The notes under the pieces were generated by a model. That model saw nothing but the letters and a program-made list of their open reading frames with translations. It did no database searches and was not told the DNA's origin. DNA of 33,847 nucleotides from a virus, in the IMG/VR virus record IMGVR_UViG_3300035698_007153, positions 1-33,847 of that record; one strand, 5' to 3'. A program made the position numbers and the translations under genes. Of this stretch, positions 4,313 through 28,173 are shown piece by piece. Each line of letters opens with the position of its first letter. The stretch's first letter is position 1.

Positions 4313-6049
4313 ATGGCAGTAACGTATAAAGACAGGGTCGAAGAGCAGACGAGATCTGCTTCGATATACCGCGCTCACCGGTATGCATACCATGATGGCA
4401 ACAACCGCTTCATAGTGGGGACTCAAACCCCCCTATATGCCAAAGAGTCATACTCGTGGAACGGTTCCTCCTTCGATTTCGAAGGAGGGATCACAGGGTC
4501 CATAACACAGATTGACGGGGATGTTTCGAGGGTTTACGGAGCAGGCACTGCTGATCCTTATGACGTGTCACTCGGTTACACAGGGTCTGTGTTCAAAGCA
4601 TACACCATCGGCCCTGGTGGGTTTGGTCTACAAGACCTTATCGATTACAACCCACAAGGCACGACAACAGATGTATCTGTTGGCCCATTAACAGGCGCTC
4701 ACCAATCAATCTTCGCATCATCGAACGATGGTAGCGGACCCGGTGCTGACGTAGTAGTCAACTACTTGCGTTTTGATGGTACAAATCTTCATTATGATGG
4801 AGCCATGGCAGGGCTTACTGGCTCATCTACATCAGCAGCATCGGACTCCATCTACTGGTTGAACGGGTACGCTATTCAGCTCAACGAGGAAAGAGCATTC
4901 ATAATGTCTTGGGATGGGTCATCCCTAACCTTGTTGGATGCCTTCACTGGGACCAGCGTTATCAGTTCATCAGCTGGTATATGTGACGTAGTGTACCTGG
5001 GCGGGTACTACTACTTTTTGAATGAGTACGGCAAGATAATAGTGATGTCATTTGATGGATCGAACTGGTCATTCGAAACCTCAGTACAATCAGCCACGCC
5101 AATAACCAATTCAGTTGACTGCTCAATAACCACTGACGGTACCTATATCATAGCAGCTAATCCGGCTATGGTGTCGGGTGGCAGCATAGAGATATGGCAG
5201 CCTTCCGGGAACACACTCAAACTCAGACGGTTTCTTACCAACACAGGTTTGCCAGCATCCAATAACGCCAATCTCGTCAGAGCTAAGAGTGATGGCAGGA
5301 TCTTCTTTGTTCGTGATACGACACCTGATGAAGTGGCTACTTTCGAGAGGTCTGACTACTCACGAATAGTTGATGGCCCTCAGGACCAGGATATATACGC
5401 GGGAGACACAGCAACCTTTGAGAGCAGCGTTACCGGAACAGCAGGTCCTACTGGTCCTGCATCATTCGTCTACCAATGGTATCAGATTGATGCTGGGACC
5501 ACAGGGAGCCTCTCAGGGGATACTGGGATTTCATACACCACCCCAATCAGAACATTGCCAGACGATGGCGATGGGTACTTCATCGGGGTGTCTGAGTATG
5601 GTGATGATGTCGAAGAGTACAGTGCCATAGCAGATCTCGGAGTATCCTCTGCTTTTGGGATAATCTCACAACCGCAGTCATCAACATATCTATCAGGTAA
5701 CGACGCAGAATTCGATGTTGGTGCCACCGGGTACGGTCTTACTTATCAGTGGTACAAGGTTGAGGCCGATACTGGGGCTACTGGGGCTATCTCAGGGGCC
5801 ACTGGTGCTGATCTAACAATACCATCTGTCGGTGCGTCTGATGATGGGGATGGGTACTTCATTACGGTAGCAGAGCCTGGTAACCCAAGCTCTCCTTTGT
5901 ACTCTGATCTTGCTACGCTATCAGTGGCAGACATCAGCGGGCTCACGGGTCCGGTTGATCAGTACTACTACAACGGGAACACGGTGACATTCGATGTGGC
6001 TGGATTCGATGAGAGTGGTCTTACTTTCCAGTGGCAGAAAGAGGATTAG
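4313..6049 (+). CDS. Beta-propeller-like and Ig-like domain tail protein ending inside an Ig domain
   Basis: This is a 578-residue protein. Residues 1 to about 345 contain recurring blade-like motifs (SWNGSSFDFE, RFDGTNLHYDG, SWDGSSLTLLD, SFDGSNWSFET), suggesting a beta-propeller. Residues about 352-444 and 446-537 are two Ig-like domains with the YQWYQI and YQWYKV core strands and a DDGDGYFI strand. A third begins at about 538 but stops at FQWQKED, right after its first core Trp strand. The missing second half of that domain is encoded at the start of the next gene, in the -1 frame. Ig-like domains on phage tails and capsids are known as weak carbohydrate-binding accessories, often added by frameshift. 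The ATG at 4313 has AAGGGAGA upstream. It is probably a tail-tip adhesin, joined to or partnered with the hub gene. Confidence 0.75.
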   Translation: MAVTYKDRVEEQTRSASIYRAHRYAYHDGNNRFIVGTQTPLYAKESYSWNGSSFDFEGGITGSITQIDGDVSRVYGAGTADPYDVSLGYTGSVFKAYTIGPGGFGLQDLIDYNPQGTTTDVSVGPLTGAHQSIFASSNDGSGPGADVVVNYLRFDGTNLHYDGAMAGLTGSSTSAASDSIYWLNGYAIQLNEERAFIMSWDGSSLTLLDAFTGTSVISSSAGICDVVYLGGYYYFLNEYGKIIVMSFDGSNWSFETSVQSATPITNSVDCSITTDGTYIIAANPAMVSGGSIEIWQPSGNTLKLRRFLTNTGLPASNNANLVRAKSDGRIFFVRDTTPDEVATFERSDYSRIVDGPQDQDIYAGDTATFESSVTGTAGPTGPASFVYQWYQIDAGTTGSLSGDTGISYTTPIRTLPDDGDGYFIGVSEYGDDVEEYSAIADLGVSSAFGIISQPQSSTYLSGNDAEFDVGATGYGLTYQWYKVEADTGATGAISGATGADLTIPSVGASDDGDGYFITVAEPGNPSSPLYSDLATLSVADISGLTGPVDQYYYNGNTVTFDVAGFDESGLTFQWQKED

Positions 6050-6051
6050 AT

Positions 6052-9000
6052 ATGTCTTGGAGTGATATAGTCGGAGCAGTATCATCGTCGTACACCACGG
6101 CTGCTTTGAGCATAGCCGACAACCTGTCTAAGTACCGGTTGGCCATCACTGATGGGTCTGGGAATGTCACCTACACGTCGGGTGCTTACGCCCTTCTACG
6201 CAAGCCGAATATCAGGTACGCTGTGGTGATAGAGACTGACTCTACTGTCACAGATGCAGACCGTGGAATCGAGGACGGGACGTTCCGGTTAATCACTGAT
6301 CGTCCTGGATGGGACGGTACTGGTCCTGATTACCCTCAATGGGAAGACAGCACCCAGAATACCGAGAAGTGGCATGAGGGGGTCCTCTCGAAGAAGAGCA
6401 TTGGTAAGATCACCAGACAGATTGATTTGACGGTATCCGGGGACTATGGGACTTTGCAGGGTACGACTGTGAGTCTCATGTCGGATATGGTAGCCGGGTC
6501 AACGAACCCGTTCTGGTTGTTCCTATCAGACTATGATATCTTCCTTGGCAACCGGCAGATGAAAATCTACGCTGTCATCAACGATACCTTCTACGACGTG
6601 TGGAGGGGTGTCATAGCTGACATCCAATGGACAGAGACCACGTTTGTCATTAAGGGAGCATCTGATCACAGGAAGATCCACAAAGATATCCCGCCTAATG
6701 TTGTAACGAAGACTAACTACGGCGATGCTGCTGATTCATCACAGTCTGACACTGTCCCAATTGCCATTGGAGAGGTGCCTTACGCTGCTTCTATTTTCAC
6801 AGAGGAAAGACCTGTATTTGAGAATCTAAGCAGAGCCAGGATATCTGAGAAAGAAGTCACGATAGCTGGCGGAGCTTCATATGTAGCAAGTGCCTCAGAG
6901 CTGGTAGGAACTTATCTGTGGCCACCAAAGCTTGGCCTGTGGACGCGAGGTAAGACGTTTGCGGCTAATCATTTCTCCGGGAAATACCTTTTTGTAAGCA
7001 CTAATGCAGAGGAGCTATCTGACAATCCTTCTGAGAATCTCGTTTACAAAATAGTGTATAGTCAACCTACAACAACTGTGTCCGGGAGAGAGATCACATA
7101 TCTATATCTTGCAACACCGTTGTACACCACAGATGAGATAGTAAGTGGTGCTGACTTCGACACTAAGTATTCGGTTCTCGCTCCTGCTGACACGAAGGAT
7201 GTGTGGTGGTTCAGAGTGTCCGGTATAGACATATCGTACAAGTTTTCAGATAAAGCGATATCATCATTCACACTTGATGATCAGAACAGACCAAGACTGA
7301 TGCAGTATCCTGGGGCAGGGGCACAGAGTTTCGTGAGTATTTCTGACATTGTTTCAGTTGCTAATATTGCAACTGGGTCAGCAACGATAATTCTACCCAC
7401 ACTCCTTGAGGGTAACATAGTGTCTCAGCACTACATCACCCCGATAACGACCATGAGTAACCCTGAGATAGGTAATGTATTCAATCCATCATCGAGCTTT
7501 GCATTCGGTAGATTGTCAGATAAAAATAGGGCAACAAAAATCGAGTGGAAAACAACGATAGCAGGGTTACAGCACGACTTCGGTGGGACCATAGACTGGC
7601 CAGCAGGGTTTGATCCTGCTGACTATGATAGGCTCTTCTTCTGCTGGGACATCAGGGACTACACCGGAAACTTGAGGAACTCATACGAAGTGCTGTTCAG
7701 GCTGCAGGACATATATGGTACTCTGATCGTAGAGGATGCAACAACAATACCTCTGCAGACTGAGCTTGCGTGGACCAATCTAAACACGCTACCTAATGAG
7801 TACTATGCAGCAGGAAACGCCAACAGTGAGAACTCTATCTTCGGTATAGCTGACTTCCATACCCCCGGCCAGGCTGTCAGGACTGTTGTCAAGATCCCTG
7901 ACTCAGTAACATCTGCGTTCCAGAACGCCGGGGCTATGTACTTCCTTAACTACACGTTCCAGGTTACGAATGACACACCGTTCAAGGCCTTCTTCGACAT
8001 CAAACAGTTCGGGATAGTAGGTGAGAAGATCACGCAGGTAACTGATGATCCAATTTATGCATCTATACTCGGTGAAAAGGTAGGCGGGGTGGACACAAAC
8101 ACGCTGCCGTATGCTTACAAACTTATCCTTGAGACGTATGATAAGATCCCTACTGCAGACATAGACTACGGCAACCTGTTTACTAAGAGGGATGACTGGT
8201 GTGTAGGGCGTCAGCTTACCCAAAGGAAGTCATCGTACGACTACCTCAAAGAGCTGTCACAGCAATCCTACGTGGCTATGTTCTCATCCAGGGGCAGGCG
8301 TAGTGACCACACTGAAAGCAAGCTCAGATTGACAGCGTTCAGGGACGATGAGACCTCGATAGCGACACACGATGCAAGTGTGATTTTGAGGGACACGTAC
8401 ACCAAAACTAAGCAGACCCCGGTTAACAAGATCTACAATGATTTCGAGGTGCTATACTCATGGAACCCGGCATCCAACAAGTATGATCGAGGATTTGTGG
8501 TTACCAATATTGACCAGGATGCATTCCCGGTATCAACTCTTGATACGAACGGTGATGGTATCATGGATTGGCAGGATTACTTCGGGGGCCTGGACGCTAC
8601 ATCGTACGCTGATGCAAAGTACCAGTGGGACCTGTGCCACGAGGCATGGACCAGGGTGAATGCTATCCAGGAGTTGCCTACTACCCTTTCGAAGTGCCCT
8701 TGGTACATTGACAGGAAGCTATTCGACCCAACTGCCACTGAAGGGCTCGGGGTTGATTCGAGTGCTTACAAGTACCTTGAGAACCTGATAATATGGGCCA
8801 CACAGAGGAAATACATCGCAAGCTATAGCCTACCAATGACAGAGACTCATGTGGTTCTGGAGTTGGCTGATAGGGTCACAGTCAAGGACGCTATCCAGAC
8901 GAATAACACCGAACGTGACGGCTGGTTAACCAAGATTGTTCTTGAGCCAATAAAGGATATCATATCTGTAGAGACTATGATGGACCCACTCGACCCAGTC

Positions 9001-9111
9001 TTGACTGACGGTATCATTGAAGAGGTCGGGCAGACCAAAACTGATGATACCGTAGAAGAGCAGGGTGACGGTGTGAACACTGATACAGTAACCGAGACAG
9101 GAGTTGAATAA
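6052..9111 (+). CDS. Large tail-tip hub / tail-associated protein with N-terminal half Ig domain
   Basis: This is a 1019-residue protein starting at ATG 6052, two bases after the preceding TAG, with AGAGG seven bases upstream. An alternative GTG at 6031 lies in the same frame inside the upstream gene. Residues 1 to about 38 (SDIVGAVSSSYTTAALSIADN and onward) complete the Ig domain begun upstream. The rest is a large beta-rich protein; the C-terminal third has the feel of tail-hub or Tal-type proteins (SSYDYLKELSQQSYVAMF, LRLTAFRDDE, NKIYNDFEVLY), which form the tail tip and contact the host. An EF-hand-like loop DTNGDGIMDWQD at residues 831-842 should bind calcium. The last 50 residues are acidic and Thr-rich. 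Being the largest adhesion-module protein and lying downstream of the tape measure in the tail order supports a hub assignment; no peptidase or muramidase motif was seen. Confidence 0.65.
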   Translation: MSWSDIVGAVSSSYTTAALSIADNLSKYRLAITDGSGNVTYTSGAYALLRKPNIRYAVVIETDSTVTDADRGIEDGTFRLITDRPGWDGTGPDYPQWEDSTQNTEKWHEGVLSKKSIGKITRQIDLTVSGDYGTLQGTTVSLMSDMVAGSTNPFWLFLSDYDIFLGNRQMKIYAVINDTFYDVWRGVIADIQWTETTFVIKGASDHRKIHKDIPPNVVTKTNYGDAADSSQSDTVPIAIGEVPYAASIFTEERPVFENLSRARISEKEVTIAGGASYVASASELVGTYLWPPKLGLWTRGKTFAANHFSGKYLFVSTNAEELSDNPSENLVYKIVYSQPTTTVSGREITYLYLATPLYTTDEIVSGADFDTKYSVLAPADTKDVWWFRVSGIDISYKFSDKAISSFTLDDQNRPRLMQYPGAGAQSFVSISDIVSVANIATGSATIILPTLLEGNIVSQHYITPITTMSNPEIGNVFNPSSSFAFGRLSDKNRATKIEWKTTIAGLQHDFGGTIDWPAGFDPADYDRLFFCWDIRDYTGNLRNSYEVLFRLQDIYGTLIVEDATTIPLQTELAWTNLNTLPNEYYAAGNANSENSIFGIADFHTPGQAVRTVVKIPDSVTSAFQNAGAMYFLNYTFQVTNDTPFKAFFDIKQFGIVGEKITQVTDDPIYASILGEKVGGVDTNTLPYAYKLILETYDKIPTADIDYGNLFTKRDDWCVGRQLTQRKSSYDYLKELSQQSYVAMFSSRGRRSDHTESKLRLTAFRDDETSIATHDASVILRDTYTKTKQTPVNKIYNDFEVLYSWNPASNKYDRGFVVTNIDQDAFPVSTLDTNGDGIMDWQDYFGGLDATSYADAKYQWDLCHEAWTRVNAIQELPTTLSKCPWYIDRKLFDPTATEGLGVDSSAYKYLENLIIWATQRKYIASYSLPMTETHVVLELADRVTVKDAIQTNNTERDGWLTKIVLEPIKDIISVETMMDPLDPVLTDGIIEEVGQTKTDDTVEEQGDGVNTDTVTETGVE

Positions 9112-10002: not shown

Positions 10003-11811
10003 ATGAGTGCAATAGTTGGGACTAACATCGGGAGCGCTCTGGCACCTACCGATACAGCGGACACCTACCCAACCCATGATGCGAATTATGGGAAGGGTGG
10101 GATCCATCATGTGGCTGACACTACGGCCCGTGATGCAATCACAACCGATAGGCGGTATGAGGGGCTCATGGCCTATTCACTTGCTGATGAGAAGACTTAC
10201 CAGCTCATTGGTGGGGTCACCAACAGTGACTGGATCACCATCCTCTCAGGAGGTGCTGGTGTAGATGGGTCAGGGGCAGCGACACAAGTTTCATATTGGA
10301 CAGACGCTGATACCATAGCAGGGGATGCTGGACTCACCTACAACTCCAGCACAGACACCCTGACCTCAGGCAAGTTGGTGCTTAGTGCTTTGGCAGCCGG
10401 TACTGATAACACGGTACTGGTAATGTCCGGTACTGATGTGGTCACTGATGAGATTGACGCGAGGGTATGGGGATCAACATTGGTTGATGGGTCTGGATCA
10501 GCGGGTAACCTGACATACTGGACAGGCCCGAGTACCCTTGGCATACTGCCGATGCAGTACTTCTCGGCGACTCAGGATATCTGGTTCTATCATGCGAATG
10601 ATGACGGGACAGAGTGGCCGATACACAGTCTGTATGTACAGTCTGCTACTCCGGCAGCAGATGACACACTTGGTGAGCTGCGGTTCATGGGGTACGAGAG
10701 CAACCTGAATCGGCATGTGTACGCCAGCATCCGTGGGTACACTGGGGAGCCTACCTCTGGTTCAGAGGACGGGGAACTCAGACTCTACATAGCGAGTGCA
10801 GGGGCTGAGGTCAATCCTCTCAGGGTGACTTGGGAGACAGCAACTGGTTACAAAAAACCAGGTGTGCTGGTCCCTGCGGGATTTGCATGTGGTATAGGTA
10901 CTGATACTATCAGCTCGTCAAGTTCATTCGAGGTACACGGCGATAAGGGAATCGTGGTCACGACGTCATTCTACTTCTCGGTTAATACAGACTACGAGAG
11001 CCTGTATGGACCTACGAAGATGTTGCAGGCAGGGTTCGCTGATAAGTCTGATCCTGACACTCCAGGCACATCAGGAGATGCAAACCTAACGTGGGATGAT
11101 ACGTCAGCACGATTCGAATACCGGTCTAACAATGACACTACCATCCGCCAGATAGCTCACCTCGGTGATATAGCAACACCTGACCTGGATGACCTGGGTG
11201 ATGTGACTATCACGACACCGACTGATTACGAGACTCTCGTGTACATAACGGATACGTGGGTCAACCGGGCGTTGGAGTTCACGGATTTGAGTGATGTGAC
11301 GATTGATGAGACACCGACAGCCAAAGACATTGTGAGGTACTCAGGATCCGGGTGGGTGAACTATTCAAAGACTATTGGGTCTTTTTCAGGGTCGTACTCA
11401 TCGCCGAACACGACCGCATTGGCAGACACTACGTACGTATTGGTTGATCTCACAGCGGCTAACTCAGACACGGTAGTAGCAGAGGGGACCGCAACAGTAG
11501 ACACCACTACCAATAGTGATATCGAGGTTACAGCGCCAGGTACCTACCAGATAACAGCCAGGATCACTGGTGAATTGACGGGAGCAGCAGAGATTACGTT
11601 AAAAGTGTCCGATGCCATCGGTACTTCATCTGATGGTGGGTTTGTTAAAACTGAGGTGGATGCATCTGGGGATAAGTTCACACTGGTGTATACAGAGGTA
11701 GAAGTGTTCACAACTACCTCAGCCAGATTGATGTATATCAAACAGATATCAGGAGGCAGCCTGGACCTCGAAATCAGCGATGTGCAGTTCTCGGTGGTCC
11801 AGATCTCCTAA
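10003..11811 (+). CDS. Large tail fibre protein with C-terminal C1q/TNF-like beta domain
   Basis: This is a 602-residue protein with ATG preceded by AAGGAGACAGAAAC. An N-terminal module near residues 30-85 (HHVADTTARDAI, RRYEGLMAYSLADEKTYQLI, DWITI) is common in phage fibre proteins. The middle is Ser/Thr/Gly-rich beta structure. Two copies of an LDDLGDVTI / FTDLSDVTI motif near residues 395-455, each followed by a trailing WVN strand, are typical fibre spacer repeats. The final 130 residues, with alternating short strands (GTYQITARITGEL, SLDLEISDVQFSVVQIS), resemble C1q/TNF-type trimerising heads. It is the last gene of the rightward late block and converges with the leftward cluster 6 bases later; no convincing intrinsic terminator was found between them. 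Confidence 0.7.
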   Translation: MSAIVGTNIGSALAPTDTADTYPTHDANYGKGGIHHVADTTARDAITTDRRYEGLMAYSLADEKTYQLIGGVTNSDWITILSGGAGVDGSGAATQVSYWTDADTIAGDAGLTYNSSTDTLTSGKLVLSALAAGTDNTVLVMSGTDVVTDEIDARVWGSTLVDGSGSAGNLTYWTGPSTLGILPMQYFSATQDIWFYHANDDGTEWPIHSLYVQSATPAADDTLGELRFMGYESNLNRHVYASIRGYTGEPTSGSEDGELRLYIASAGAEVNPLRVTWETATGYKKPGVLVPAGFACGIGTDTISSSSSFEVHGDKGIVVTTSFYFSVNTDYESLYGPTKMLQAGFADKSDPDTPGTSGDANLTWDDTSARFEYRSNNDTTIRQIAHLGDIATPDLDDLGDVTITTPTDYETLVYITDTWVNRALEFTDLSDVTIDETPTAKDIVRYSGSGWVNYSKTIGSFSGSYSSPNTTALADTTYVLVDLTAANSDTVVAEGTATVDTTTNSDIEVTAPGTYQITARITGELTGAAEITLKVSDAIGTSSDGGFVKTEVDASGDKFTLVYTEVEVFTTTSARLMYIKQISGGSLDLEISDVQFSVVQIS

Positions 11812-11817
11812 GGCTGC

Positions 11818-12018
11818 TCAGTCAGGTTCCCCTGATGTGGGGACAGGTGGAGTATCAGGTACAACGGGAGCTGGGCCAACTGGTCTGGCTCCCTGTATCT
11901 TTCCCCTGAGTTCTGCGAGAGCGATCCCGCCATCAATGGACATCTTCCGTGGCTCATTGAGGATAGCGATCAAGTTCTTCTGGTCCTGGTCAGTAATTGT
12001 TAACACGAGCGTAGTCAT
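11818..12018 (-). CDS. Small protein with Pro-rich tail, unknown function
   Basis: This 66-residue protein reads from ATG at 12018, which overlaps the glycosyltransferase stop as ATGA; the in-frame TTG at 12024 is a less likely start. The first 40 residues (LTITDQDQKNLIAILNEPRK and onward) look helical, and the last 22 are Pro/Val/Thr-rich (VGPAPVVPDTPPVP), probably disordered. It is the last gene of the leftward operon and ends 6 bases from the convergent fibre gene. Function not recognised; similar short helical proteins with Pro-rich tails are common next to phage structural genes. Confidence 0.55.
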   Translation of the reverse strand: MTTLVLTITDQDQKNLIAILNEPRKMSIDGGIALAELRGKIQGARPVGPAPVVPDTPPVPTSGEPD

Positions 12019-12587
12019 ATCCAATACCCCTTGTGGTGTTTGACCCTTAGATCAGGGTCACAGTGAATAGAAATCCCATTGTCATATAGTGCCCGGCAGT
12101 ACCCTACGTCTTCACCGGCTGGTTGTCCGTCAATCATAGTGTACCTGTACCACGGGAACTCCAAAGACAAGTAGACCGAAGGCTTGATGGATAGATACCC
12201 ACCAGGGCACCAGTCAATCTTGGTTAGCCCGTCCCAGGTTTTGATTTCATCATGAGTGTACCTGGGGAACCGTGGATCCCACTTACCCATTGTAGGCCTA
12301 CCGTCAGCGCCATTGTACCAGCCCGTCACTACATCTTGGTCGTAGCTGATCAATCGGAGGAACTGCTCGGGGGTCCACATGATGTCTGAGTCGATCCATA
12401 CGATCCTATCGGTACCATCGCTGAGGGCCCCACGGGCCATATCATTCCTGAGGTTGAATACATTAGGAGAGTACGCCAGCATCAGTTTGTAATCGATCTT
12501 CCTGGAAGAGAGCTCGGCCTGGGTAGTCACCCATGAGGTGACTACTTTGTGGTGCCAGGTGAGTCCAGGTACGAGGACGTGGATCAT
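12015..12587 (-). CDS. GT-A-type (family 2-like) glycosyltransferase
   Basis: This 190-residue protein has an N-terminal HVLVPGLTW strand, a segment rich in Arg/Asn (LRNDMARGAL), then VWIDSDIMW with the metal/sugar-nucleotide-binding DxD at residues 66-68, a GGYLSIK acceptor-loop motif near 129-135, and PAGEDVGYCRAL with the candidate catalytic acidic pair at 159-160, ending in a His-rich HCDPDLRVKHHKGYW. This order is that of compact phage and bacterial GT-A glycosyltransferases. It would transfer a sugar from a nucleotide donor; acceptor unknown, plausibly virion proteins, phage DNA or host surface glycan. It is shorter than cellular members (about 230-300) but has all core motifs. Its ATG overlaps the stop of the 44-residue ORF upstream. 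Confidence 0.75.
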   Translation of the reverse strand: MIHVLVPGLTWHHKVVTSWVTTQAELSSRKIDYKLMLAYSPNVFNLRNDMARGALSDGTDRIVWIDSDIMWTPEQFLRLISYDQDVVTGWYNGADGRPTMGKWDPRFPRYTHDEIKTWDGLTKIDWCPGGYLSIKPSVYLSLEFPWYRYTMIDGQPAGEDVGYCRALYDNGISIHCDPDLRVKHHKGYWI

Positions 12588-12718
12588 TCCCCCACCTCCT
12601 TCTCAAGGAACTCTCTCAGCAATCTCCGGATCTCCTGGGTCTGGTCATTGACCTTGATCACCAGTTCCAGGATTGTCTCCAAGCTGGGCTTCTCCTCTTT
12701 TACTATCTCTACTGCCAT
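12584..12718 (-). CDS. Short helical (coiled-coil-like) protein
   Basis: A 44-residue ORF from ATG at 12718 to a TGA that overlaps the glycosyltransferase start as ATGA. The sequence alternates charged and aliphatic residues (LETILELVIKVNDQTQEIRR then LLREFLEKEVGE), giving a strong heptad-like pattern for one amphipathic helix. It overlaps the 3-prime end of the gene at 12645 by 74 bases in another frame. The coupling and pattern support a real gene, but its role is unknown. Confidence 0.5.
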   Translation of the reverse strand: MAVEIVKEEKPSLETILELVIKVNDQTQEIRRLLREFLEKEVGE

Positions 12719-12881
12719 ATAGGGCCTTCAGTTCCTCTGCGAGTTGGTACTTTCTCATCAGGTTGATCCTGTACTTCTCGGTCCGGTGGCAGGTACCGTT
12801 GAGGGTACACTGCACCTTGCCAAGCTCTTCACGTATCTCAGACTCAGTCTTCCCGGATGGTTCGTTTACGTTCTGTTCCAC
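12645..12881 (-). CDS. Small hydrophilic protein, unknown function
   Basis: 78 residues from GTG at 12881 (GGAG five bases upstream) to 12645. The first 58 residues are helical and charged (SEIREELGKVQCTLNGTCHR, MRKYQLAEELKALYGSR) with two cysteines six residues apart. The last 20 are Gly/Asp/Gln-rich and overlap the 44-residue ORF, so this tail may be unconserved. It overlaps the end of the lipoprotein gene by 38 bases. An embedded position beside a lipoprotein resembles spanin gene arrangements, but there is no membrane anchor, so I do not call it a spanin. Confidence 0.5.
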   Translation of the reverse strand: MEQNVNEPSGKTESEIREELGKVQCTLNGTCHRTEKYRINLMRKYQLAEELKALYGSRDSKRGEAQLGDNPGTGDQGQ

Positions 12882-13161
12882 TCGCGCTCCAGTACTTGAT
12901 CAGGATCTTACCATCCCCGGGCACAACCACATCTGTGGTACGATCCCTGGGGATGTCTGTGATGTACGTTCTGTACCCGAGGCGCTCCTTAGATACATCA
13001 CTGGTCCTCGGAGTATCAGGGGCCTCTCGGTAGACCTGACAAGGCCCACAGGACTCATCCGGGCAGTTGATCTGCAGACTCACAGTACCATCATCAGCAG
13101 ACACCGGGCTATCGCATCCGATAACAGCGAGCAAGGCCAGGAGGCAGAGTAGAGTTCTCAT
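12844..13161 (-). CDS. Small lipoprotein with CGPC motif
   Basis: This 105-residue protein begins with a lipoprotein signal: MRTLLCLLALLAVIGC, with the lipobox VIGC and acceptor Cys16. Asp at position +2 would favour inner-membrane retention under the E. coli rule, if the host is Gram-negative. The mature part has Cys33 and a CGPC motif at 38-41, the active-site sequence of thioredoxins, but the domain is too short for a full thioredoxin fold. It may be a membrane-anchored redox or superinfection-exclusion-type protein (both inferences). It starts two bases before the stop of the gene upstream in the same leftward operon. Confidence 0.6.
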   Translation of the reverse strand: MRTLLCLLALLAVIGCDSPVSADDGTVSLQINCPDESCGPCQVYREAPDTPRTSDVSKERLGYRTYITDIPRDRTTDVVVPGDGKILIKYWSASGTERKRTIRED

Positions 13162-13162
13162 G

Positions 13163-13405
13163 TTATGCCTCCTTCACTTTCTCATTCATTCTGATGATCA
13201 GTTCCTCGGCACGATTGAAGTCACCCATACCTATTGCAGCGGATACAGGGCCCACCAAAGCTTTTGATTTGAGACGTTTGTCGAGCCTGGTCACGAAGAC
13301 CATCAGGTTCTCCATTACCTGCCGCTGGCTGAAAGCATCAAAAGCTGGCTTCATGCCCTCGAAGATGTCCCGGTTGATCTGTACGTTCATTGTCTTGGTA
13401 GCCAT
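13163..13405 (-). CDS. Small protein, possibly ribbon-helix-helix-like
   Basis: 80 residues from ATG at 13405, with AGGAG seven bases upstream. The short N-terminal strand-like segment (TMNVQINRDIF) followed by helices (MKPAFDAFSQRQVMENLMVF) is reminiscent of ribbon-helix-helix DNA-binding proteins, although the helical part is longer than usual and the RHH turn is not clear. The C-terminal half (FNRAEELIIRMNEKVKEA) is another amphipathic helix. It is the first gene downstream of the promoter/operator at 13426-13480 and precedes the lipoprotein. It could be an autoregulator of this operon; weak evidence. Confidence 0.5.
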   Translation of the reverse strand: MATKTMNVQINRDIFEGMKPAFDAFSQRQVMENLMVFVTRLDKRLKSKALVGPVSAAIGMGDFNRAEELIIRMNEKVKEA

Positions 13406-13425
13406 ATTGGCACTCCTATTGGTTT

Positions 13426-13480
13426 GTAGTGTATGCTATAGTATACTACATTCATATAGGATATGCCATAATTCTTTCAA
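13426..13480 (-). promoter_or_regulatory. Leftward promoter with overlapping 24-bp dyad
   Basis: Read leftward, TTGAAA (13475-13480) and TATATG (13453-13458) are separated by 16 bases, a plausible sigma70-type promoter for the 13405 operon. Just downstream, 13426-13449 is an imperfect inverted repeat centred at 13437/13438 (half-site GTAGTATACTAT against GTAGTGTATGCT, 9 of 12 matching), in the position of a repressor site. Confidence 0.45.
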
Positions 13481-13483
13481 CTT

Positions 13484-13741
13484 TTATTTTGCAGCAGCCA
13501 GCTCATCCAAGCGGGACTTCTCCTGGGCCTCTTTGCGATCCTTCCGGTCCCACTCAAGGCGGTCACGCTTGTAGGCGTCCAGGAGAGGTTCTATGCTCTC
13601 TGCGTCCAGCATGTGGTGTAGAGCAGTGTTGACCACCTCTGATCGATTCAGGTGCCCCCAGAGGGTGTCCATGCGCTCCTGGATGACCGGGTCACATGAC
13701 CAGGACATCGGCTTCCGGGTTGATAGCTTCTTACTTGGCAT
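13484..13741 (-). CDS. Ribbon-helix-helix-type DNA-binding protein
   Basis: 85 residues. After a basic start (MPSKKLSTRK), the segment MSWSCDPVIQERMDTL then LNRSEVVNTALHHML fits the RHH pattern: a beta strand, helix A, and a helix B opening with N-R-S-E-V as in CopG/MetJ-like regulators. The C-terminal 40 residues form a long charged helix (AYKRDRLEWDRKDRKEAQEK). Such proteins dimerise and bind operators through the paired strands. The gene overlaps the end of the 257-residue gene upstream by 11 bases and lies next to the dyad at 13426-13449, which is a candidate binding site. Confidence 0.65.
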   Translation of the reverse strand: MPSKKLSTRKPMSWSCDPVIQERMDTLWGHLNRSEVVNTALHHMLDAESIEPLLDAYKRDRLEWDRKDRKEAQEKSRLDELAAAK

Positions 13742-14504
13742 TAGGTACCTCCCCCGTGAACCTTACGTGTAGGACTGCATTTGCGATATCAAGAGTCTTA
13801 TTCAAGGCGTATGCGTGCAGTTGCCCATTTTTGAGGGAAGCCTCTGTGGCCATGGTCCGCCTCAGATAGCAGATCTGCCCTGGTTCGATAGTGATCAGCT
13901 CATCGGCATCCACCAATTTGATGGCACCGATGCTTGGGCCAGAGTAGTCAATGACCAAGAAGTCATCAGTAATGCGCTCTTGGAACTCTTTTGAGCTGTA
14001 TAACACCTCCATCGGTACATTGCTCCTGGGTTCGCCATGGCAGTATACTGCCAGATGCCTCTCACGGAATGGTGGGAGCGCTGGCTTTTGCTCAGTTTTT
14101 GGGTGTTCGTAAGCCATTGGTTCCATGTCAGTTACGCCCTGGTCAGGCACAGTAGGGCCCCTATACCACTCAAGATCTGCCAGTTTCTTGGAGTTTTTCT
14201 CGATAATCCATGCGACAAACTCTGCTATCTCACCATTCCCTGGCACAAATTTGGTGAGCAGGTCAGGTGATGCTGTCAGTAGTGGGAGCAGGACCTTCTT
14301 CGAAAATCCGTGGTAGGCATCAGTTATGTCCAGATAGGTTGGGATCTCGGCCCGGCACTGTATCCCGAACCGGAACCCCTTACCGGCGTCCCCTGGGGCT
14401 GTAACGTATATCTGTATGTAGCCTATTTTGGCGTCATACCGTACGGCAAGGATCTTGTATCCCCCGATTATCTCTCGGTGGGGTGTGCTGGTGCTGTCGA
14501 GCAT
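13731..14504 (-). CDS. Conserved-looking protein of unknown function
   Basis: 257 residues, ATG at 14504. I do not recognise the family. The N-terminal 60 residues are beta-rich (GGYKILAVRYDAKIGYIQIY, GFRFGIQCRAEI); residues 60-120 are helical with an EFVAWIIEKNSKK segment; a Pro/Glu-rich linker near 125-150 separates a second beta-rich half (HLAVYCHGEPR, FLVIDYSGPSIGAIKLVDAD, LHVRFTGEV). It contains no transmembrane segment and no catalytic motif that I can identify. It overlaps the gene upstream (14468) by 37 bases and the RHH gene downstream by 11, so it belongs to a tightly packed leftward operon. Confidence 0.6.
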   Translation of the reverse strand: MLDSTSTPHREIIGGYKILAVRYDAKIGYIQIYVTAPGDAGKGFRFGIQCRAEIPTYLDITDAYHGFSKKVLLPLLTASPDLLTKFVPGNGEIAEFVAWIIEKNSKKLADLEWYRGPTVPDQGVTDMEPMAYEHPKTEQKPALPPFRERHLAVYCHGEPRSNVPMEVLYSSKEFQERITDDFLVIDYSGPSIGAIKLVDADELITIEPGQICYLRRTMATEASLKNGQLHAYALNKTLDIANAVLHVRFTGEVPNAK

Positions 14505-14689
14505 CTAAGTGCCTCCATTGCTGGTATGCCTGGTTTGAGTTTCCCGTGGCGGATCATTCTAATCAGCGAATCAAGCCCGGATCCTGAGTACTGTAAGGCC
14601 TCATACTTGTTGAGTACCATCCAGGTCTCAGACTCGGTGATGACCACAACGCCATATTCTGACTTGTAGTAGTATGGTTCTTTGAGCAT
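14468..14689 (-). CDS. Small protein, first gene of the leftward operon, unknown function
   Basis: 73 residues if read from ATG at 14689, which has GGGAG about 11 bases upstream; the GTG at 14710 would add 7 residues but lies inside the palindrome and has no Shine-Dalgarno. The sequence (YYYKSEYGVVVITESETWMV, NKYEALQYSGSGLDSLIRMI) suggests an alpha/beta fold; no family recognised. It is the first gene left of the divergent regulatory region shared with the sigma-like gene at 14800. Confidence 0.5.
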   Translation of the reverse strand: MLKEPYYYKSEYGVVVITESETWMVLNKYEALQYSGSGLDSLIRMIRHGKLKPGIPAMEALRCSTAPAHPTER

Positions 14690-14707
14690 AGACTGAAGAT
14701 CTCCCTT

Positions 14708-14731
14708 CACATAATAATATATTATTAAGTG
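14708..14731. promoter_or_regulatory. 24-bp near-perfect palindrome in the divergent intergenic region
   Basis: A dyad centred at 14719/14720, with half-sites CACATAATAATA and CACTTAATAATA (11 of 12 identical). It sits between the leftward gene at 14689 and the rightward sigma-like gene at 14800 and is AT-rich, so it could overlap -10 elements in either direction. The half-site CTTAATAAT recurs in the palindrome before the scaffold/capsid genes at 22981-23000. Candidate operator. Confidence 0.55.
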
Positions 14732-14799
14732 AGGTCGTTCTCCACGGCTTTCTGTACAAATTTGCCATTAGGGCTCACAAACCGTCATCAGGGAGCTCT

Positions 14800-15309
14800 A
14801 TGATATTCGATGCCGATCCAATCCAATTCGTTACGACCAACTATGAAGACCTCCGTAAGATGGTCCTGTTCATCGCAAAGTGCCGGATCCCAGACGAGAT
14901 TATACATGACCACATCATGGACTTTGCTTGGCGGCTCAAGCGCTATGACATCCTCACAAAGTTTGATATCAGCAAATCATCGCTATCCACCTGGATCTTC
15001 CGGGCACTGGTAAGTCAGATGGCAACAGACGCCAAAAGGAATAGGCGTCGGGCGATGACATTAACATACACACCTTACTGCGAAGACATGCAAGCCCCGC
15101 CCACCAACCGCCACCAAGATCGGATGCTTGATCTGATGAGGTTCGCGGATTACTTGCTGAAGAAGAACAGGAGGCTGTACGAAGTGCTCAAGTACATGTT
15201 GGCAGGCAATAACCAGACCGAGACGGCTTCTGAGATGGGGTACACGGTTGCAGCCATCAGCAATTGGGTCCAGCAGATAAGATCGGAGCATGAACGGTGG
15301 GCAAAGTAA
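14800..15309 (+). CDS. Sigma-70-family-like (ECF-type) transcription factor, copy 1
   Basis: 169 residues, ATG preceded by GGGAG. Residues about 18-85 follow sigma region 2: helices (LRKMVLFIAKCRIPDEII), then SLSTWIFRALVSQMATDAKR and a basic cluster, the usual S-x-x-x-W-hydrophobic-x-x-hydrophobic-N/S-x-x-x-D-x-x-R pattern of the -10-binding helix. Residues about 115-160 (YEVLKYMLAGNNQTETASEM then GYTVAAISNWVQQIR) are a region 4 helix-turn-helix for the -35 element. A linker of about 30 residues joins them. It would redirect host RNA polymerase to phage promoters, probably late genes (inference). It overlaps the following gene by 13 bases, which in turn overlaps a second sigma-like gene. Confidence 0.7.
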   Translation: MIFDADPIQFVTTNYEDLRKMVLFIAKCRIPDEIIHDHIMDFAWRLKRYDILTKFDISKSSLSTWIFRALVSQMATDAKRNRRRAMTLTYTPYCEDMQAPPTNRHQDRMLDLMRFADYLLKKNRRLYEVLKYMLAGNNQTETASEMGYTVAAISNWVQQIRSEHERWAK

Positions 15310-15779
15310 GGCCAGGGAGAGCGGACTCTCAGTTCGTGAGCATCGATGAGTTCCGGGATTTTGTGGATGACATCGAAGAGCGGTGCGGATTCACGGTACG
15401 CCGGGCAGCCCTGATCCGGTCGATGGTTGATACCCTTAGGCGGCACCCAAAGATACTGGCAGAGTGTGTGGCATACCCATTCGTTGATGCGGCATACAAG
15501 ACTACAGCAGCATACAAAAAGGCAAAGCGTCGTGATGCCTGTGACCGTGGGTCTGATGAAGCCATGGAGGCCGCTTTGATAGCTCACCGGATCAGGGCCG
15601 GGCATGTGCGGAATACCGTGAAGGAACGGCATGAGGCTGCCAAAAAGAAGGAGATGGCCAGCTATACAGGAGACGACGTGTGGTATGCCAAGGCCGGGAT
15701 CCTGAAGGATGGTGACAAAGAAGTAGAACCAGAGAATTGCGGGCATGTTGAGGAGTTCAACGATGACATCGGACGCTAA
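15297..15779 (+). CDS. Unknown helical protein between two sigma-like genes
   Basis: 160 residues from GTG at 15297, with GGAG eight bases upstream; overlaps the sigma-like gene before it by 13 bases and the one after it by 17. It is rich in Arg/Lys/Asp/Ala and predicted mostly helical (FRDFVDDIEERCGFTVRRAA, IRAGHVRNTVKERHEAAKKK), with an acidic C-terminus. Not recognised. Position inside a two-sigma operon suggests a role in transcription control, such as an anti-sigma or RNA-polymerase-binding partner, but there is no sequence evidence for that. Confidence 0.6.
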   Translation: MGKVRPGRADSQFVSIDEFRDFVDDIEERCGFTVRRAALIRSMVDTLRRHPKILAECVAYPFVDAAYKTTAAYKKAKRRDACDRGSDEAMEAALIAHRIRAGHVRNTVKERHEAAKKKEMASYTGDDVWYAKAGILKDGDKEVEPENCGHVEEFNDDIGR

Positions 15780-16458
15780 CCCAATCAAGTACAAAGGAAT
15801 AATCCACTGGTGCTTCATCAAGCTCTGGCGTGGGCACATCCCTGACGACGTCAAGGCCGAGCTTGTCCAGGATGTAATGGTTCTGATCGTGCGGCACGGC
15901 TACCCCAATGCCAAGCAGGCACAGTTCGCTGATAGCACATGGGTCTATCGCATCTGCCAGAACGCCATGACCACTCGGAAACAGAAGCTGGCTTCGCATT
16001 GGCACAGAAGTGTGGACAGGGTCGAAGATATCAACGCAGTGGGTCACCCGGATAGCACGTTCGATGCCTCGGGACTTACTGGCCCAGAGCAGGAAATTTA
16101 TGTCGATGAAATGATAGCACGATTGGATGAGGTCGGTAAAGACTCGTTTGGAGTGCCTGGGATGCTCGGTACGGTACTTCGAATGAGGATGGGTGGCTTT
16201 ACTGGCCAGGAGACTGCGGAGGCTCTGGGGGTCTCCCAGGCCTCCGTAGCAAGGGCTCTCAGGTTTGCTCAGAGCCAGTGGCTTTCTCTTTCAGGAGAAA
16301 AGCGGCGTGTCCGCAGATCGAAAAGAGTTCACGTCGTGAAAACCGACCAAGCTGTGCCGTCATGTAGGCCGAACGTGCCCACTGACGCAGGCCCTTCTCA
16401 GTCTCGTCTTCGAGGTCAGCGAGGAAGAAGCCCATCTCTTCTGACATCTTCCCCTTGA
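15763..16458 (+). CDS. Sigma-70-family-like transcription factor, copy 2
   Basis: 231 residues from ATG at 15763, with GAGGAG upstream. Residues about 10-80 resemble sigma region 2 (IPDDVKAELVQDVMVLIVRH, DSTWVYRICQNAMTTRKQKL), and residues about 130-172 region 4 (LGTVLRMRMGGFTGQETAEA then LGVSQASVARALRFAQSQWL), a clear helix-turn-helix. The remaining 55-60 residues are Arg/Ser/Pro-rich and lie antisense to the leftward gene 16259-16495, so they look like an unconserved read-through tail. It is diverged from the sigma-like protein at 14800 rather than a recent copy. Expected to bind host core polymerase. Confidence 0.7.
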   Translation: MTSDANPIKYKGIIHWCFIKLWRGHIPDDVKAELVQDVMVLIVRHGYPNAKQAQFADSTWVYRICQNAMTTRKQKLASHWHRSVDRVEDINAVGHPDSTFDASGLTGPEQEIYVDEMIARLDEVGKDSFGVPGMLGTVLRMRMGGFTGQETAEALGVSQASVARALRFAQSQWLSLSGEKRRVRRSKRVHVVKTDQAVPSCRPNVPTDAGPSQSRLRGQRGRSPSLLTSSP

Positions 16459-16495
16459 ACCTCTCGACCTGGACTATTACTGGAGTCTTGATCAT
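16259..16495 (-). CDS. Small protein overlapping the 3-prime end of a sigma-like gene, unknown function
   Basis: 78 residues, ATG overlapping the ORF6N gene stop as ATGA, which argues for a real coupled gene. Sequence (VIVQVERFKGKMSEEMGFFL, KGLRQWARSAYMTAQLGRFS, ELFSICGHAAFLLKEKA) is amphipathic and protein-like; no family recognised. Its last 200 bases are antisense to the C-terminal coding part of the sigma-like gene, making a convergent overlap. Confidence 0.6.
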   Translation of the reverse strand: MIKTPVIVQVERFKGKMSEEMGFFLADLEDETEKGLRQWARSAYMTAQLGRFSRRELFSICGHAAFLLKEKATGSEQT

Positions 16496-16809
16496 ACCGA
16501 AACGTCAGACACCTTAGTGGCAGTTACAGATTTGAGGACTCCTGAGAGAGCGAGGGCACCTTGTTCCGTGTAGACCCACGGTAAGTTGTTGATTTGTAAG
16601 GCTATCACATTTTGTGATCTCATGCCATCCAACTCTTTTCGTGTGAGCGGGAACCTCTCTTGGTTCCTGGACACAGCTTGGTTCCTTGACACAGCTTGGT
16701 TAATAGCCCTCGACTCCACCTCATACAGTTTGGCCAGATCTCCGGCAAGCATCACCTGGGTGCCTCGAACGCTGTGGATCATCGTTCCGATTGCTTGTAG
16801 CTCATTCAT
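16492..16809 (-). CDS. ORF6N-domain protein, short, with internal hexapeptide duplication
   Basis: 105 residues matching the ORF6N domain of phage proteins: IHSVRGTQVMLAGDLAKLYE then VESRAINQAV, ERFPLTRKELDGMRSQNV, and LPWVYTEQGALALSGVLKS. ORF6N is found at the N-terminus of many phage and prophage DNA-binding/antirepressor-type proteins, usually followed by another domain (KilA-C-like, for example). Here the protein stops just after the ORF6N core, so it consists of little else. Residues 39-44 and 45-50 are an exact repeat of AVSRNQ in the helix that is normally a single R-N-x-x-R-F segment. Role inferred: regulatory, DNA-binding. Confidence 0.8.
   Translation of the reverse strand: MNELQAIGTMIHSVRGTQVMLAGDLAKLYEVESRAINQAVSRNQAVSRNQERFPLTRKELDGMRSQNVIALQINNLPWVYTEQGALALSGVLKSVTATKVSDVSV
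16660..16695 (-). repeat. 18-bp tandem duplication inside the ORF6N gene
   Basis: Two adjacent 18-base copies (16660-16677 and 16678-16695) differ at one base and encode AVSRNQ twice. The frame is kept. The near-identity points to a recent slippage or duplication event. Confidence 0.85.
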
Positions 16810-16839
16810 TTCAAACCTCCAGGGTCAGTGTTGATTTGG

Positions 16840-17331
16840 CTACTTGAAAAACTCTTTGTAAGTGAGCGCACCAGACTTCTCAATCTTTTCTCTAAGTATC
16901 TGATCTTCCTCTTCACGCAGCCTCTTAGCCTTGCGTTGCTTGTTATGGGCCAGGGCCTCGTTCTCTTCACTCCTGCCATTGATCAGGTGCTGGGAGAAAC
17001 GCCGGATGCTATCGAGCTGATCCTGTCTCCACTTGTTCCCGGCTTTACGCCAGAGCGGCCAAGTAAGTTCACGTACCTTCTCAAAGACTTCGGCCTCTTG
17101 GTTATCCAGGCAATGCTGTACAAGGGTCCCGATAGGTAGTCCATCTCTCGGTGGCCATGCTATCCATTTGGAGGCTATCTCGAAGAGGCTATTCCGGTCA
17201 ATAGCTGTGAGCTTCTGTTCCCAGGGTATGCTCTTGGACATCACAGGCCTCGGGTGGTATTTGTCTTCCATCGCTAATATCCTATCGGCTTGCCGCTCGA
17301 AGACCTTTTTGAATAATGATTGGAAGCTCAT
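16840..17331 (-). CDS. Helical charged protein, unknown function
   Basis: 163 residues, ATG overlapping the upstream gene's stop as ATGA. N-terminus basic (MSFQSLFKKVFERQADRILA), a Trp-rich centre (ASKWIAWPPRDGLP, RELTWPLWRKAGNKWRQDQL) and a long, highly charged C-terminal helix (HNKQRKAKRLREEEDQILRE). No recognised family. The basic helical tail would suit nucleic-acid or protein contacts. It is the third gene of the leftward operon from the promoter at 18146-18174. Confidence 0.55.
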   Translation of the reverse strand: MSFQSLFKKVFERQADRILAMEDKYHPRPVMSKSIPWEQKLTAIDRNSLFEIASKWIAWPPRDGLPIGTLVQHCLDNQEAEVFEKVRELTWPLWRKAGNKWRQDQLDSIRRFSQHLINGRSEENEALAHNKQRKAKRLREEEDQILREKIEKSGALTYKEFFK

Positions 17332-17825
17332 ACGCCCTCCAATTCAGATTCAATTGATGGCCCACCGAACTGTTTATCCATTTGGTCAAACAAGCTGTTC
17401 TTTGGTTTGTTTGGCTCGAAGTCCGGTCTTAGGTAGACAGGGATGGGGTTATTCTTCCGTAGCCACACGACATAACCACCATTAAGCTTAGGACCAATCT
17501 TCGTGATTTTAGGTAGAGTCTGCTCATCCTTGTCACCAGACTCGAAGGAGATAACAGCCTGCATCTTAACAAGGCCACCTCTCAGTGCTTCAAAGTCAGG
17601 TAAGTCTTTCGGTGTGCCTACTTCTCTCCCGTACCAGGAACAGACGAACTCCCATAGTTGCTTCGAACCAAGGTCATAGCCATCAGAACGTAGCAGGAAT
17701 GCTTGACCACCCCTACGAGCAGAAGCTTGGAAGTAGAAGTAGATCTTCGTTTTTGTTTTGTTGAGCAGAGCAGCATAACAGACAAACGGGCGGTCATCAT
17801 TGAAAATTGACATTGCATGAGTCAT
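17328..17825 (-). CDS. Unknown protein, weak resemblance to phage single-strand-binding-type proteins
   Basis: 165 residues from ATG at 17825; a second ATG at 17813 is possible and neither has a strong Shine-Dalgarno. The order of strand-rich N-terminus (YAALLNKTKTKIYFYFQ), a middle helix (SKQLWEFVCSWYGREVG), a short strand (LVKMQAVISFESGDKDE) and a KITKIGPKL stretch, then a Pro/acidic C-terminus, vaguely recalls phage OB-fold single-strand-binding proteins (DUF669-type). This is only an impression; if right it would be the sole replication-associated gene in the window. It is coupled to the next gene by ATGA. Confidence 0.5.
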   Translation of the reverse strand: MTHAMSIFNDDRPFVCYAALLNKTKTKIYFYFQASARRGGQAFLLRSDGYDLGSKQLWEFVCSWYGREVGTPKDLPDFEALRGGLVKMQAVISFESGDKDEQTLPKITKIGPKLNGGYVVWLRKNNPIPVYLRPDFEPNKPKNSLFDQMDKQFGGPSIESELEGV

Positions 17826-17857
17826 ATCGTTTTGGTATCTTTCAAGGGCATGAGTTC

Positions 17858-17897
17858 AGGGTGGTATCCTCCGGCAAGAGGTATCACCCTATTTTTT
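17858..17897 (+). terminator. Rightward intrinsic terminator opposite the leftward operon
   Basis: Arms 17858-17868 (AGGGTGGTATC) and 17880-17890 (GGTATCACCCT) pair over 11 bp including two G-U pairs, with an 11-base loop, followed by A and six T (17892-17897). The T-run is on the + strand, so it would stop rightward transcription although all nearby genes run leftward. Confidence 0.5.
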
Positions 17898-17900
17898 GAG

Positions 17901-18104
17901 CTAAATGTTGGCCATAGTACCGCCAGAGTAAGGCACACTCTTACGTTCTTTACGGGCAGCCTCATTAGCTTTTCTGTCCTTGTAGTACCGAATAAGAATC
18001 TCTTTGATAGTGCCTGACAAGGATTCATTCAACTTTTTCTGGTCCTTCTCAATATCCATAGCAATCTCCAAAGGAACCTGAGCACTCACAGTAACCATCA
18101 TCAC
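17901..18104 (-). CDS. Small ribbon-helix-helix-like DNA-binding protein, first gene of the leftward operon
   Basis: 67 residues, ATG at 18104 with GAGGAG six bases upstream. The N-terminal strand MMVTVSAQVPLEIAMDIEKD and following helix LNESLSGTIKEILIRYYKDR fit the RHH pattern of CopG/Arc-like regulators. The tail (ANEAARKERKSVPYSGGTMA) is basic then flexible. It lies directly downstream of the near-consensus promoter at 18146-18174 and may bind the neighbouring repeats or autoregulate the promoter (inference). A 75-base gap containing a rightward terminator separates it from the next leftward gene. Confidence 0.6.
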   Translation of the reverse strand: MMMVTVSAQVPLEIAMDIEKDQKKLNESLSGTIKEILIRYYKDRKANEAARKERKSVPYSGGTMANI

Positions 18105-18145
18105 AATCTCCTCAGTAAATGTTATCCAATAAATCTAATACCTAT

Positions 18146-18174
18146 AAGATAACACAATATCTGGCCACTGTCAA
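18146..18174 (-). promoter_or_regulatory. Near-consensus sigma70-type promoter, leftward
   Basis: Read leftward: TTGACA (18169-18174, perfect -35), exactly 17 bases, then TATCTT (18146-18151). About 40 bases lie between the -10 and the ATG at 18104. It should drive the leftward operon 18104-16259 using the host's primary sigma factor, that is, early expression (inference). Confidence 0.7.
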
Positions 18175-18189
18175 CCCCTAAATGCAACA

Positions 18190-18252
18190 ATAACTCATAC
18201 CCTATCCAACATAACTCATACCCTATCCAACATAACTCATACCCTATCCAAC
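18190..18252. repeat. Three perfect tandem 21-bp direct repeats (iteron-like)
   Basis: Identical units at 18190-18210, 18211-18231 and 18232-18252, each containing ATAACTCATACCC and CTATCCAAC. A 21-bp period is two helical turns, so bound proteins would stack on one face. Placed between the divergent leftward promoter and the terminase genes, they could be an origin iteron set, a packaging site, or operators. Confidence 0.8.
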
Positions 18253-18292
18253 AGAAAACGGACGGAAGTTTAAGGAAAACGAAGGAATAGTG

Positions 18293-18397
18293 TAAGATTC
18301 AGTACAAGAATCCTATAAGATTCAGTACATGATTACTGTACAGTATACTATACATGAATCTTGTACAGGATTTACGTTAGACTCTTGTACAGGATTT
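18293..18397. repeat. Cluster of paired direct repeats and small palindromes
   Basis: TAAGATTCAGTACA occurs at 18293-18306 and 18316-18329 (23-bp spacing). TCTTGTACAGGATTT occurs at 18359-18373 and 18383-18397 (24-bp spacing). Between them lie the perfect palindrome ACTGTACAGT (18335-18344) and AGTATACT (18342-18349). All share a GTAC core, arranged roughly symmetrically around the central palindrome, which suggests a compound protein-binding site. Confidence 0.65.
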
Positions 18398-18425
18398 TAT
18401 AAGAATCTCGTTCGTTTCCAATAAT

Positions 18426-18582
18426 CCTCCTTCCTTTCAGAGTGCTTCGCACGGAATACCCAGGAGAAGGCCTGAAAGCCGGAGGAGGAAGACCCTTGAA
18501 TGAACTAATCCACCTGGGATCGTTATAATGGACTGGAGGCTTTGTCTGGAACAAAGTCTTGAATGGAGATCCTTGAAGGATC
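18426..18582 (+). other. Hairpin-rich leader before the terminase genes (candidate pac/cos or regulatory RNA)
   Basis: Inverted repeats in sequence: CTTTCAG (18434-18440) with CTGAAAG (18472-18478), flanked by CCTCC and GGAGG tracts; a small hairpin GTGCTTCGCAC at 18442-18452; CTTTGT/ACAAAG (18540-18545 and 18551-18556); and GATCCTTGAAGGATC (18568-18582). A perfect TATAAT at 18524-18529 could be a -10 box, but no good -35 lies 17 bases upstream. Such structure just before terS is where many phages carry the packaging-initiation site. Confidence 0.4.
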
Positions 18583-27067: not shown

Positions 27068-28096
27068 ATGAGTGATTACTATCTGAAGAATCTCCGCATC
27101 CTCGTGGCGAAGCTTGAGACTACGCCCGGGACGATGGAGACTATCACGAGCGCCGACTTTGATACCCGCGTGCGGGCACCGGAAGTCACACCTACCATTG
27201 AGGTAGATGATGAGTCTTCCAAGTATGCCAACGGGCATCACGGAGAAGACGAAGTGGTCATGGGAGCCCAGAGCTCACAGGTCGCTTTCAATGTCCGTAT
27301 GACCTGTGCCGCAACCGTTACATCAGAGCCGAAGTGGTGGAAGTTTGCCAAGGGTTGTGGGCTCGAAGCTGCAGCCTGGGGATCAGCCGGTATCGGCCTG
27401 TACCCTCGTAAGGCATACGACGAACAGACCCTCACGATTTGGGTGTATGACATCCAGCGTGGATCCTCTCCTTCAGCCGTCTGTTACAAGATGTCTGGCT
27501 GCATGGGCAACATGGTAATCGGAGCTGAGGGTGTTGGAAAGCCTTGGATGGCCAACTTCACTTTCACCGGTAAGATGGAAGACATCGACATGGCTGTCAG
27601 CAATGGTGACATCCTTGAGTTGATCAGCCCTGATACGACTTGCTCGGACAAGATGTTGAACAACACTCTATTGATTGGCACGACTGCCATCAATACGAGC
27701 ACGTTCTCATTCGATCCAGGCAACGAGATCCAGCCTCAGATCAATCAGGCAGAGGCCACAGGGTACGACTACTTCGCGATCACTTCCAGGAAGCCGCGTC
27801 TTTCGATCAACCCGCTGCTCCAGGCCAACCGTGATGTGTGGGGAGACCTGACATCTGGTTTGACAGGTTGCCCGGGTACATACGAGATCATGCTCGGCGA
27901 CACAGGTCTGGACAACAAGTACACTCTCCGTGTACCTAAGGCCCAGGTCATCAGTGCCAGCTTGGCTGACCGTGAAGGACTGGTCAACTGGGATCAGAAC
28001 TGGAAGTGTCTGACAAACGGTACCACCGGTGCTTTGTCGGATTCTGACCTGACCGTAGAGGATACGTTCGAGCTGCTCCAGGGTAGCCGTTCGTAA
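27068..28096 (+). CDS. Tail tube protein
   Basis: 342 residues, ATG at 27068. Beta-rich with a typical N-terminus (YLKNLRILVAKLETTPGTME then TITSADFDTRV), a KYANGHHGEDEVVMGAQSSQ segment, an ANFTFTGKMEDIDMAVSNGD strand pair as in tube proteins, and a DREGLVNWDQNWKCL C-terminal part. Similar in layout to phage major tail proteins of siphoviruses; stacks of hexamers form the tube. No sheath gene accompanies it, so the tail is non-contractile. The gene is followed by a strong hairpin. Confidence 0.75.
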   Translation: MSDYYLKNLRILVAKLETTPGTMETITSADFDTRVRAPEVTPTIEVDDESSKYANGHHGEDEVVMGAQSSQVAFNVRMTCAATVTSEPKWWKFAKGCGLEAAAWGSAGIGLYPRKAYDEQTLTIWVYDIQRGSSPSAVCYKMSGCMGNMVIGAEGVGKPWMANFTFTGKMEDIDMAVSNGDILELISPDTTCSDKMLNNTLLIGTTAINTSTFSFDPGNEIQPQINQAEATGYDYFAITSRKPRLSINPLLQANRDVWGDLTSGLTGCPGTYEIMLGDTGLDNKYTLRVPKAQVISASLADREGLVNWDQNWKCLTNGTTGALSDSDLTVEDTFELLQGSRS

Positions 28097-28118
28097 TGGC
28101 CTCTCGCAAGAGAAAAAC

Positions 28119-28148
28119 ACCCCGGGGGAACGAGACATCCCCTGGGGT
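28119..28148 (+). other. Strong hairpin between tail tube and chaperone genes
   Basis: Arms 28119-28129 (ACCCCGGGGGA) and 28138-28148 (TCCCCTGGGGT) pair over 11 bp including one G-U pair, with an 8-base loop. There is only a short T stretch after it, so it may be a transcript attenuator or mRNA-end stabiliser rather than a full terminator. It explains the preference for the chaperone start at 28174. Confidence 0.6.
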
Positions 28149-28173
28149 TTCACCTACTAAGAGGAGACAGGGC

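Follow-up and report, generated by a model that had tools for sequence, protein, structure and literature searches.

We have found an Ig-like domain which is shared by two neighbouring genes of an uncultivated phage. The end of gene 1, an adhesin-like tail protein, contains the first half of the domain, and the start of gene 2, a large tail protein, contains the second half. The limit between both genes is probably a real boundary of two separately initiated genes, and it falls within a loop of this Ig-like domain, which was probably acquired. It is a single instance: no relative carries the same split.

Organization of the gene pair

The phage corresponds to virus record IMGVR_UViG_3300035698_007153. 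The window that we have analysed is the whole record, 33,847 bases. Its features are collected in Table 1. Gene 2 covers positions 6052–9111 (1019 residues) and its frame is open back to 6013. The N-terminal region of gene 1 has a weak resemblance to a propeller-like protein of a relative, and its C-terminus reads ...LTFQWQKED (in a longer form, ...FDVAGFDESGLTFQWQKED ahead of the TAG). Gene 2 starts at its ATG with MSWSDIVGAVSSSYTTAALSIADNLSKYRLAI, which is also given as MSWSDIVGAVSSSYTTAALSIADNLSKYRLAITDGSGNVTYTSGAYALLRKPNIRYAVVIETD... The preliminary description of this DNA had placed the stop and the start correctly, and the good restart site which it had noticed is borne out. The two genes are spaced like a translationally coupled pair, in which no more than about 10 nt separate stop and start, and gene 2 has a ribosome-binding site of its own.

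Table 1. Position of the features discussed in the text
Feature	Position	Strand	Remarks
Gene 1, adhesin-like tail protein, 578 aa	4313–6049	+	N-terminal region, then Ig1, Ig2 and first half of Ig3
Ig1	5366–5647	+	Gene 1 residues 352–445, full model 1–92 (HMM)
Ig2	5660–5926	+	Gene 1 residues 450–538, model 1–91 (HMM)
Ig3, first half	5945–6046	+	Model 3–37, up to the end of gene 1 (HMM)
Stretch open in both frames	6013–6049	+	Only place possible for any -1 shift; without slippery heptamer
GAGG, Shine-Dalgarno-like	6041–6044	+	7 nt ahead of ATG 6052
Gene 1 stop, TAG	6047–6049	+	
Gene 2 start, ATG	6052–6054	+	2 nt past the gene 1 stop
Ig3, second half	6055–6201	+	Model 43–86 at gene 2 residues 2–45; last strand to about residue 50
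Gene 2 body, large tail protein, putative hub	6205–9111	+	Point where the genes of relatives begin
GGGTTTA slippery heptamer	28599–28605	+	Tail-assembly-chaperone-like pair; internal positive control of the scan

Other regions of the record have features of their own. Its two ends (1–1081 and 32871–33847) are located in a collagen-like gene, in frame across the circular join. A related IMG/VR contig (L165) likewise ends in a collagen-like repeat. This contig and RPRK01000145.1 (L173), from a Burkholderiales MAG, both have 12,723 bases and the same match: they are likely a single viral contig which was binned with the MAG. Between the tail and terminase genes, in positions 11811–18563, there are ORFs on both strands with few recognisable families.

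A single Ig-like domain in two genes

The Ig HMM was built with Ig1 and Ig2 of the window, five Ig repeats of Synechococcus phage S-BM3 and one Ig domain of Vibrio phage AQKL99. The full recovery of Ig1 and Ig2 is thus expected, since both are members of the model. Residues 545–577 of gene 1 match model positions 3–37 (1e-6), while residues 2–45 of gene 2 match positions 43–86 of 92 (1e-7). The N-terminus of gene 2 reaches 26.7 bits, versus 11.3 bits for the top one of 5000 shuffles. As the end of gene 1 and the start of gene 2 cover adjoining parts of the model, the two halves are contiguous on one domain of 92 positions: only the loop positions 38–42 are absent, which is the pattern of a split protein with two fragments covering one domain. 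The division of an Ig-like domain had already been proposed in the preliminary description, which we can confirm. The cut had been placed in mid-strand; we find it instead in the loop which follows the FQWQK strand. This loop, which leads from the FQW strand to the next one, has a different length among the aligned domains.

The same result is obtained by other comparisons. Pairwise alignments of the gene 2 N-terminus are found with S-BM3 (residues 2–54) and AQKL99 (residues 2–45). We also prepared a joined Ig3 query, formed by both halves with an X placed at the break. It matches Ig domains of 128 phage records across the break (best E 2e-5), and also the tail protein of Shigella phage Sf14, which has a solved structure (9c2d, 5e-6). 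Once joined, Ig3 is therefore matched as a whole phage Ig-like domain. Typical Ig positions are kept on both sides: gene 1 has the FQW strand, while gene 2 has GAVSSSYT, L..AD...YR and the final strand. With Pfam alone gene 1 gives an Ig match under the curated cut-off, and no Ig family is hit by the joined Ig3. AlphaFold models (gene 2 with four relatives, gene 1 alone) have a mean pLDDT of 35–36, which is too low for an interpretation.

Relatives of gene 2

Gene 2 as a query gave nothing usable in viral, genome, phage and plasmid collections. The major capsid protein led to many phages, with no gene 2 match among them, and a prophage search in 399 genomes of one order found none. Relatives were reached through the minor tail protein in 27068–28096, on contigs which are 43–58% identical in that protein. 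In this way we have found gene 2 homologs, with about 30% identity, on four distinct contigs (G105, G106, G108 and G110); a fifth one (G107) also carries a homolog and is an apparent duplicate of G106. All the homologs (L190, L191/L192, L193 and L194) have their own start codon and begin at a point equivalent to window residue ~52, without the Ig half. Their starts are MSTISYAIEITTD, MATINYAIQVTTD, MSKLHYAIRLTTD and VAVINYAIKIETG.

The gene upstream of the homolog is different on each contig. In G105 a frame of 318 codons stops 8 nt before the homolog start and weakly matches the middle of gene 1 (E 0.001). A long upstream frame also stops within about 10 nt of the homolog start in G106/G107 and in G110. 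In G108 the nearest long frame upstream ends about 250 bases away. The homolog in G110 is directly downstream of the counterpart of the gene found at 31612 in the window. This neighbourhood, together with the gene order after the tape measure, is the reason why we call gene 2 a putative hub. In Pfam and PHROG neither gene 2 nor its relatives match a family, known tail hub families included.

No Ig match is found in any contig with a gene 2 relative or in any other locus compared, with the exception of S-BM3 and AQKL99, which are part of the model. Since in the relatives gene 2 is separate and has no Ig, the simplest history starts from a separate, Ig-free gene 2; among the phages that we have seen the array is specific to this one. 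This lineage appears to have acquired the Ig array for itself, across a gene boundary which already existed. Ig3 runs unbroken into gene 2, which indicates that a single frame connected the array with gene 2 at the end of the domain; the gene boundary is now inside Ig3. The preliminary description had suggested a comparison with relatives, in search of one continuous frame. As they have no Ig and a separate gene 2, the comparison does not refute the split and gives no direct confirmation of it.

A possible assembly of the two halves

The following sequence of events could explain these features. The adhesin-like gene upstream would have gained an Ig array at its C-terminus, and the third domain of this array would have run into the N-terminal part of the gene that follows. 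Translation would stop at TAG 6047 and restart at ATG 6052, by termination-reinitiation. Both proteins would be made side by side and their half-domains would pair, completing Ig3. The adhesin would in this way be docked on the large tail protein by a non-covalent contact. It is conceivable, as a tentative proposal, that the half-domains of the two tail proteins fold together in this way as a non-covalent snap-fit, which would fix the adhesin to the tail tip with neither fusion nor frameshift.

A somewhat unlikely alternative is that the stop and restart are real and the half-domains do not pair: they would be non-functional leftovers of recombination. The split is found only once and the relatives manage without any Ig, as would be the case for such leftovers. 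However, both halves have recognisable Ig positions. These would be lost in a long decay, but they would equally be intact after a very recent event.

Nature of the gene boundary

The preliminary description had offered three options: a stop-restart, a programmed frameshift and a sequencing indel. The stop-restart is the best supported, because the start site is good, the 2-nt gap is of a kind common in this genome (in about half of the 22 neighbouring gene pairs listed, stop and start are within about 15 nt) and the gene 2 homologs are separate genes. The programmed frameshift is unsupported and the indel remains as the main rival.

In the latter case there would be one long gene for an adhesin-Ig-tail protein, broken by a recent single-base mutation or by an assembly error, and the restart site would be fortuitous. 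We consider this unlikely. Both parts must have been fused in a continuous frame at one time, if only briefly, since Ig3 passes into gene 2 at residue ~52 with no stop or start of its own. Furthermore 26 nt separate the two tryptophans on either side of the break, one nt less than in the 9-residue version of the loop, which one S-BM3 domain has. Against this, no homopolymer of at least 4 bases is present around the break, and the genes of the window, leaving out the collagen-rich ends, have no further frame break when compared with proteins of relatives, in which gene 2 stays a separate gene. The start site itself would have to be a coincidence. We simulated 32,730 single-base indels in the genes of this phage, with criteria which were set after the junction had been seen, so that the results are a rough guide. 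An ATG at 10 nt or less from the resulting stop, with a 4-base Shine-Dalgarno at 5–9 nt, appears in 2.1% of cases. The value is 0.66% when the ATG must additionally be at 21 nt or less from the indel and 3.5% with looser criteria: depending on strictness, a comparable site is found in 0.7–3.5% of random indels. A coincidental start site at the junction is thus unlikely, not negligible.

Two separately initiated genes remain our preferred reading. Read-through of the stop was also considered and rejected: the frame of gene 1 meets TAG again at 6068 and the domain is not restored.

Search for a programmed frameshift

It is very improbable that a programmed -1 frameshift in 6013–6049 yields a minor fusion of adhesin and tail protein, as no recognisable site is present at the junction, while the same scan succeeds in two positive controls. 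Neighbouring genes are out of frame by chance in two of three cases. The -1 relation pointed out in the preliminary description is true, but by itself it says nothing about frameshifting. Re-reading one base after the AAA codon does give, as had been described, a frame open through the whole domain, and the attachment of Ig domains by frameshifting is known (PMC5009743). However, there is no in-frame X XXY YYZ heptamer between 6013 and 6049, such as accompanies frameshift-attached Ig domains. The sole cognate -1 slip (TTC to TTT, at 6026) precedes the conserved W and would destroy the FQWQK strand. The RNA at the junction has no structure beyond that of shuffles.

The internal control is the GGGTTTA of this phage. 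It is found in the chaperone-like pair (28096–28976) just ahead of the first stop, where a -1 programmed frameshift is likely. The second control is Proteus phage YP1 (L199, 1495–2010): GGGAAAG is placed at the domain boundary, just before the stop of the major capsid gene, and a complete Ig comes after it in the -1 frame. Ig3 differs from this pattern, since it is cut inside instead of being entirely downstream of a shift site. In YP1 the annotated ORF at the capsid-linked Ig begins inside the Ig.

Comparison with known systems

The same type of Ig is present in tail proteins of S-BM3, of Vibrio phages AQKL99 and ALK and of Shigella phage Sf14 (9c2d), with which the joined Ig3 aligns across the break. 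In all of them, unlike here, the Ig domain is inside one protein. We compared a spread of 60 phage records out of the 705 which have this Ig type. Among the annotated rows, almost all have the matched domain within one feature. The Ig match touches more than one feature in three rows (MW202615, FelixO1 and YP1), none with the arrangement seen here: in MW202615 and FelixO1 the annotation is nested, sparse or on the opposite strand, and YP1 has a frameshift-type site. Around the Ig-like match of MW202615.1 (L195, 4001–4225) the annotated ORFs of both strands are all short, and the match is not covered by any ORF on its own strand; a non-standard code or a missed gene is possible there.

Ig-like domains are joined to phage structural proteins by programmed frameshifting in T3 and in Lactobacillus phage A2 (PMC5009743); the major capsid protein of YP1 is of this kind judging by its sequence. 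Our case resembles these phages and YP1 in having an Ig-like domain across a change of reading frame beside a virion gene. It differs from YP1, with its heptamer and whole downstream Ig, by the absence of a heptamer, the cut inside the domain and the own start of gene 2. If the halves pair, phages would have a third means of fixing mobile Ig domains on a virion protein, in addition to fusing them in frame and to programmed frameshifting.

There are known cases of phage genes which are split and have reassembling products, in Aeromonas phage Aeh1 (nrdA), phage 25 (genes 43A/43B) and T4 (topoisomerase); reassembly was tested for two of these split enzymes, and Aeh1 NrdA and the phage 25 polymerase are the precedents (PMC2988022). 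As in them, one folded unit would be formed from two adjacent genes. Those enzymes were split by insertions, whereas here we have a small beta domain which is cut in a loop and has no insert. Pairing of the halves would make it a natural split-Ig assembly module.

Finally, the GeneTack survey describes translationally coupled gene pairs which resemble frameshifted genes, and takes as a working assumption that two genes do not share one conserved domain (PMC3711429). Gene 1 and gene 2 are like these coupled pairs, with stop and start within 10 nt; unlike what the survey assumes, a domain is divided between them. If its halves pair, it would be a counter-example to the assumption that conserved domains are undivided.
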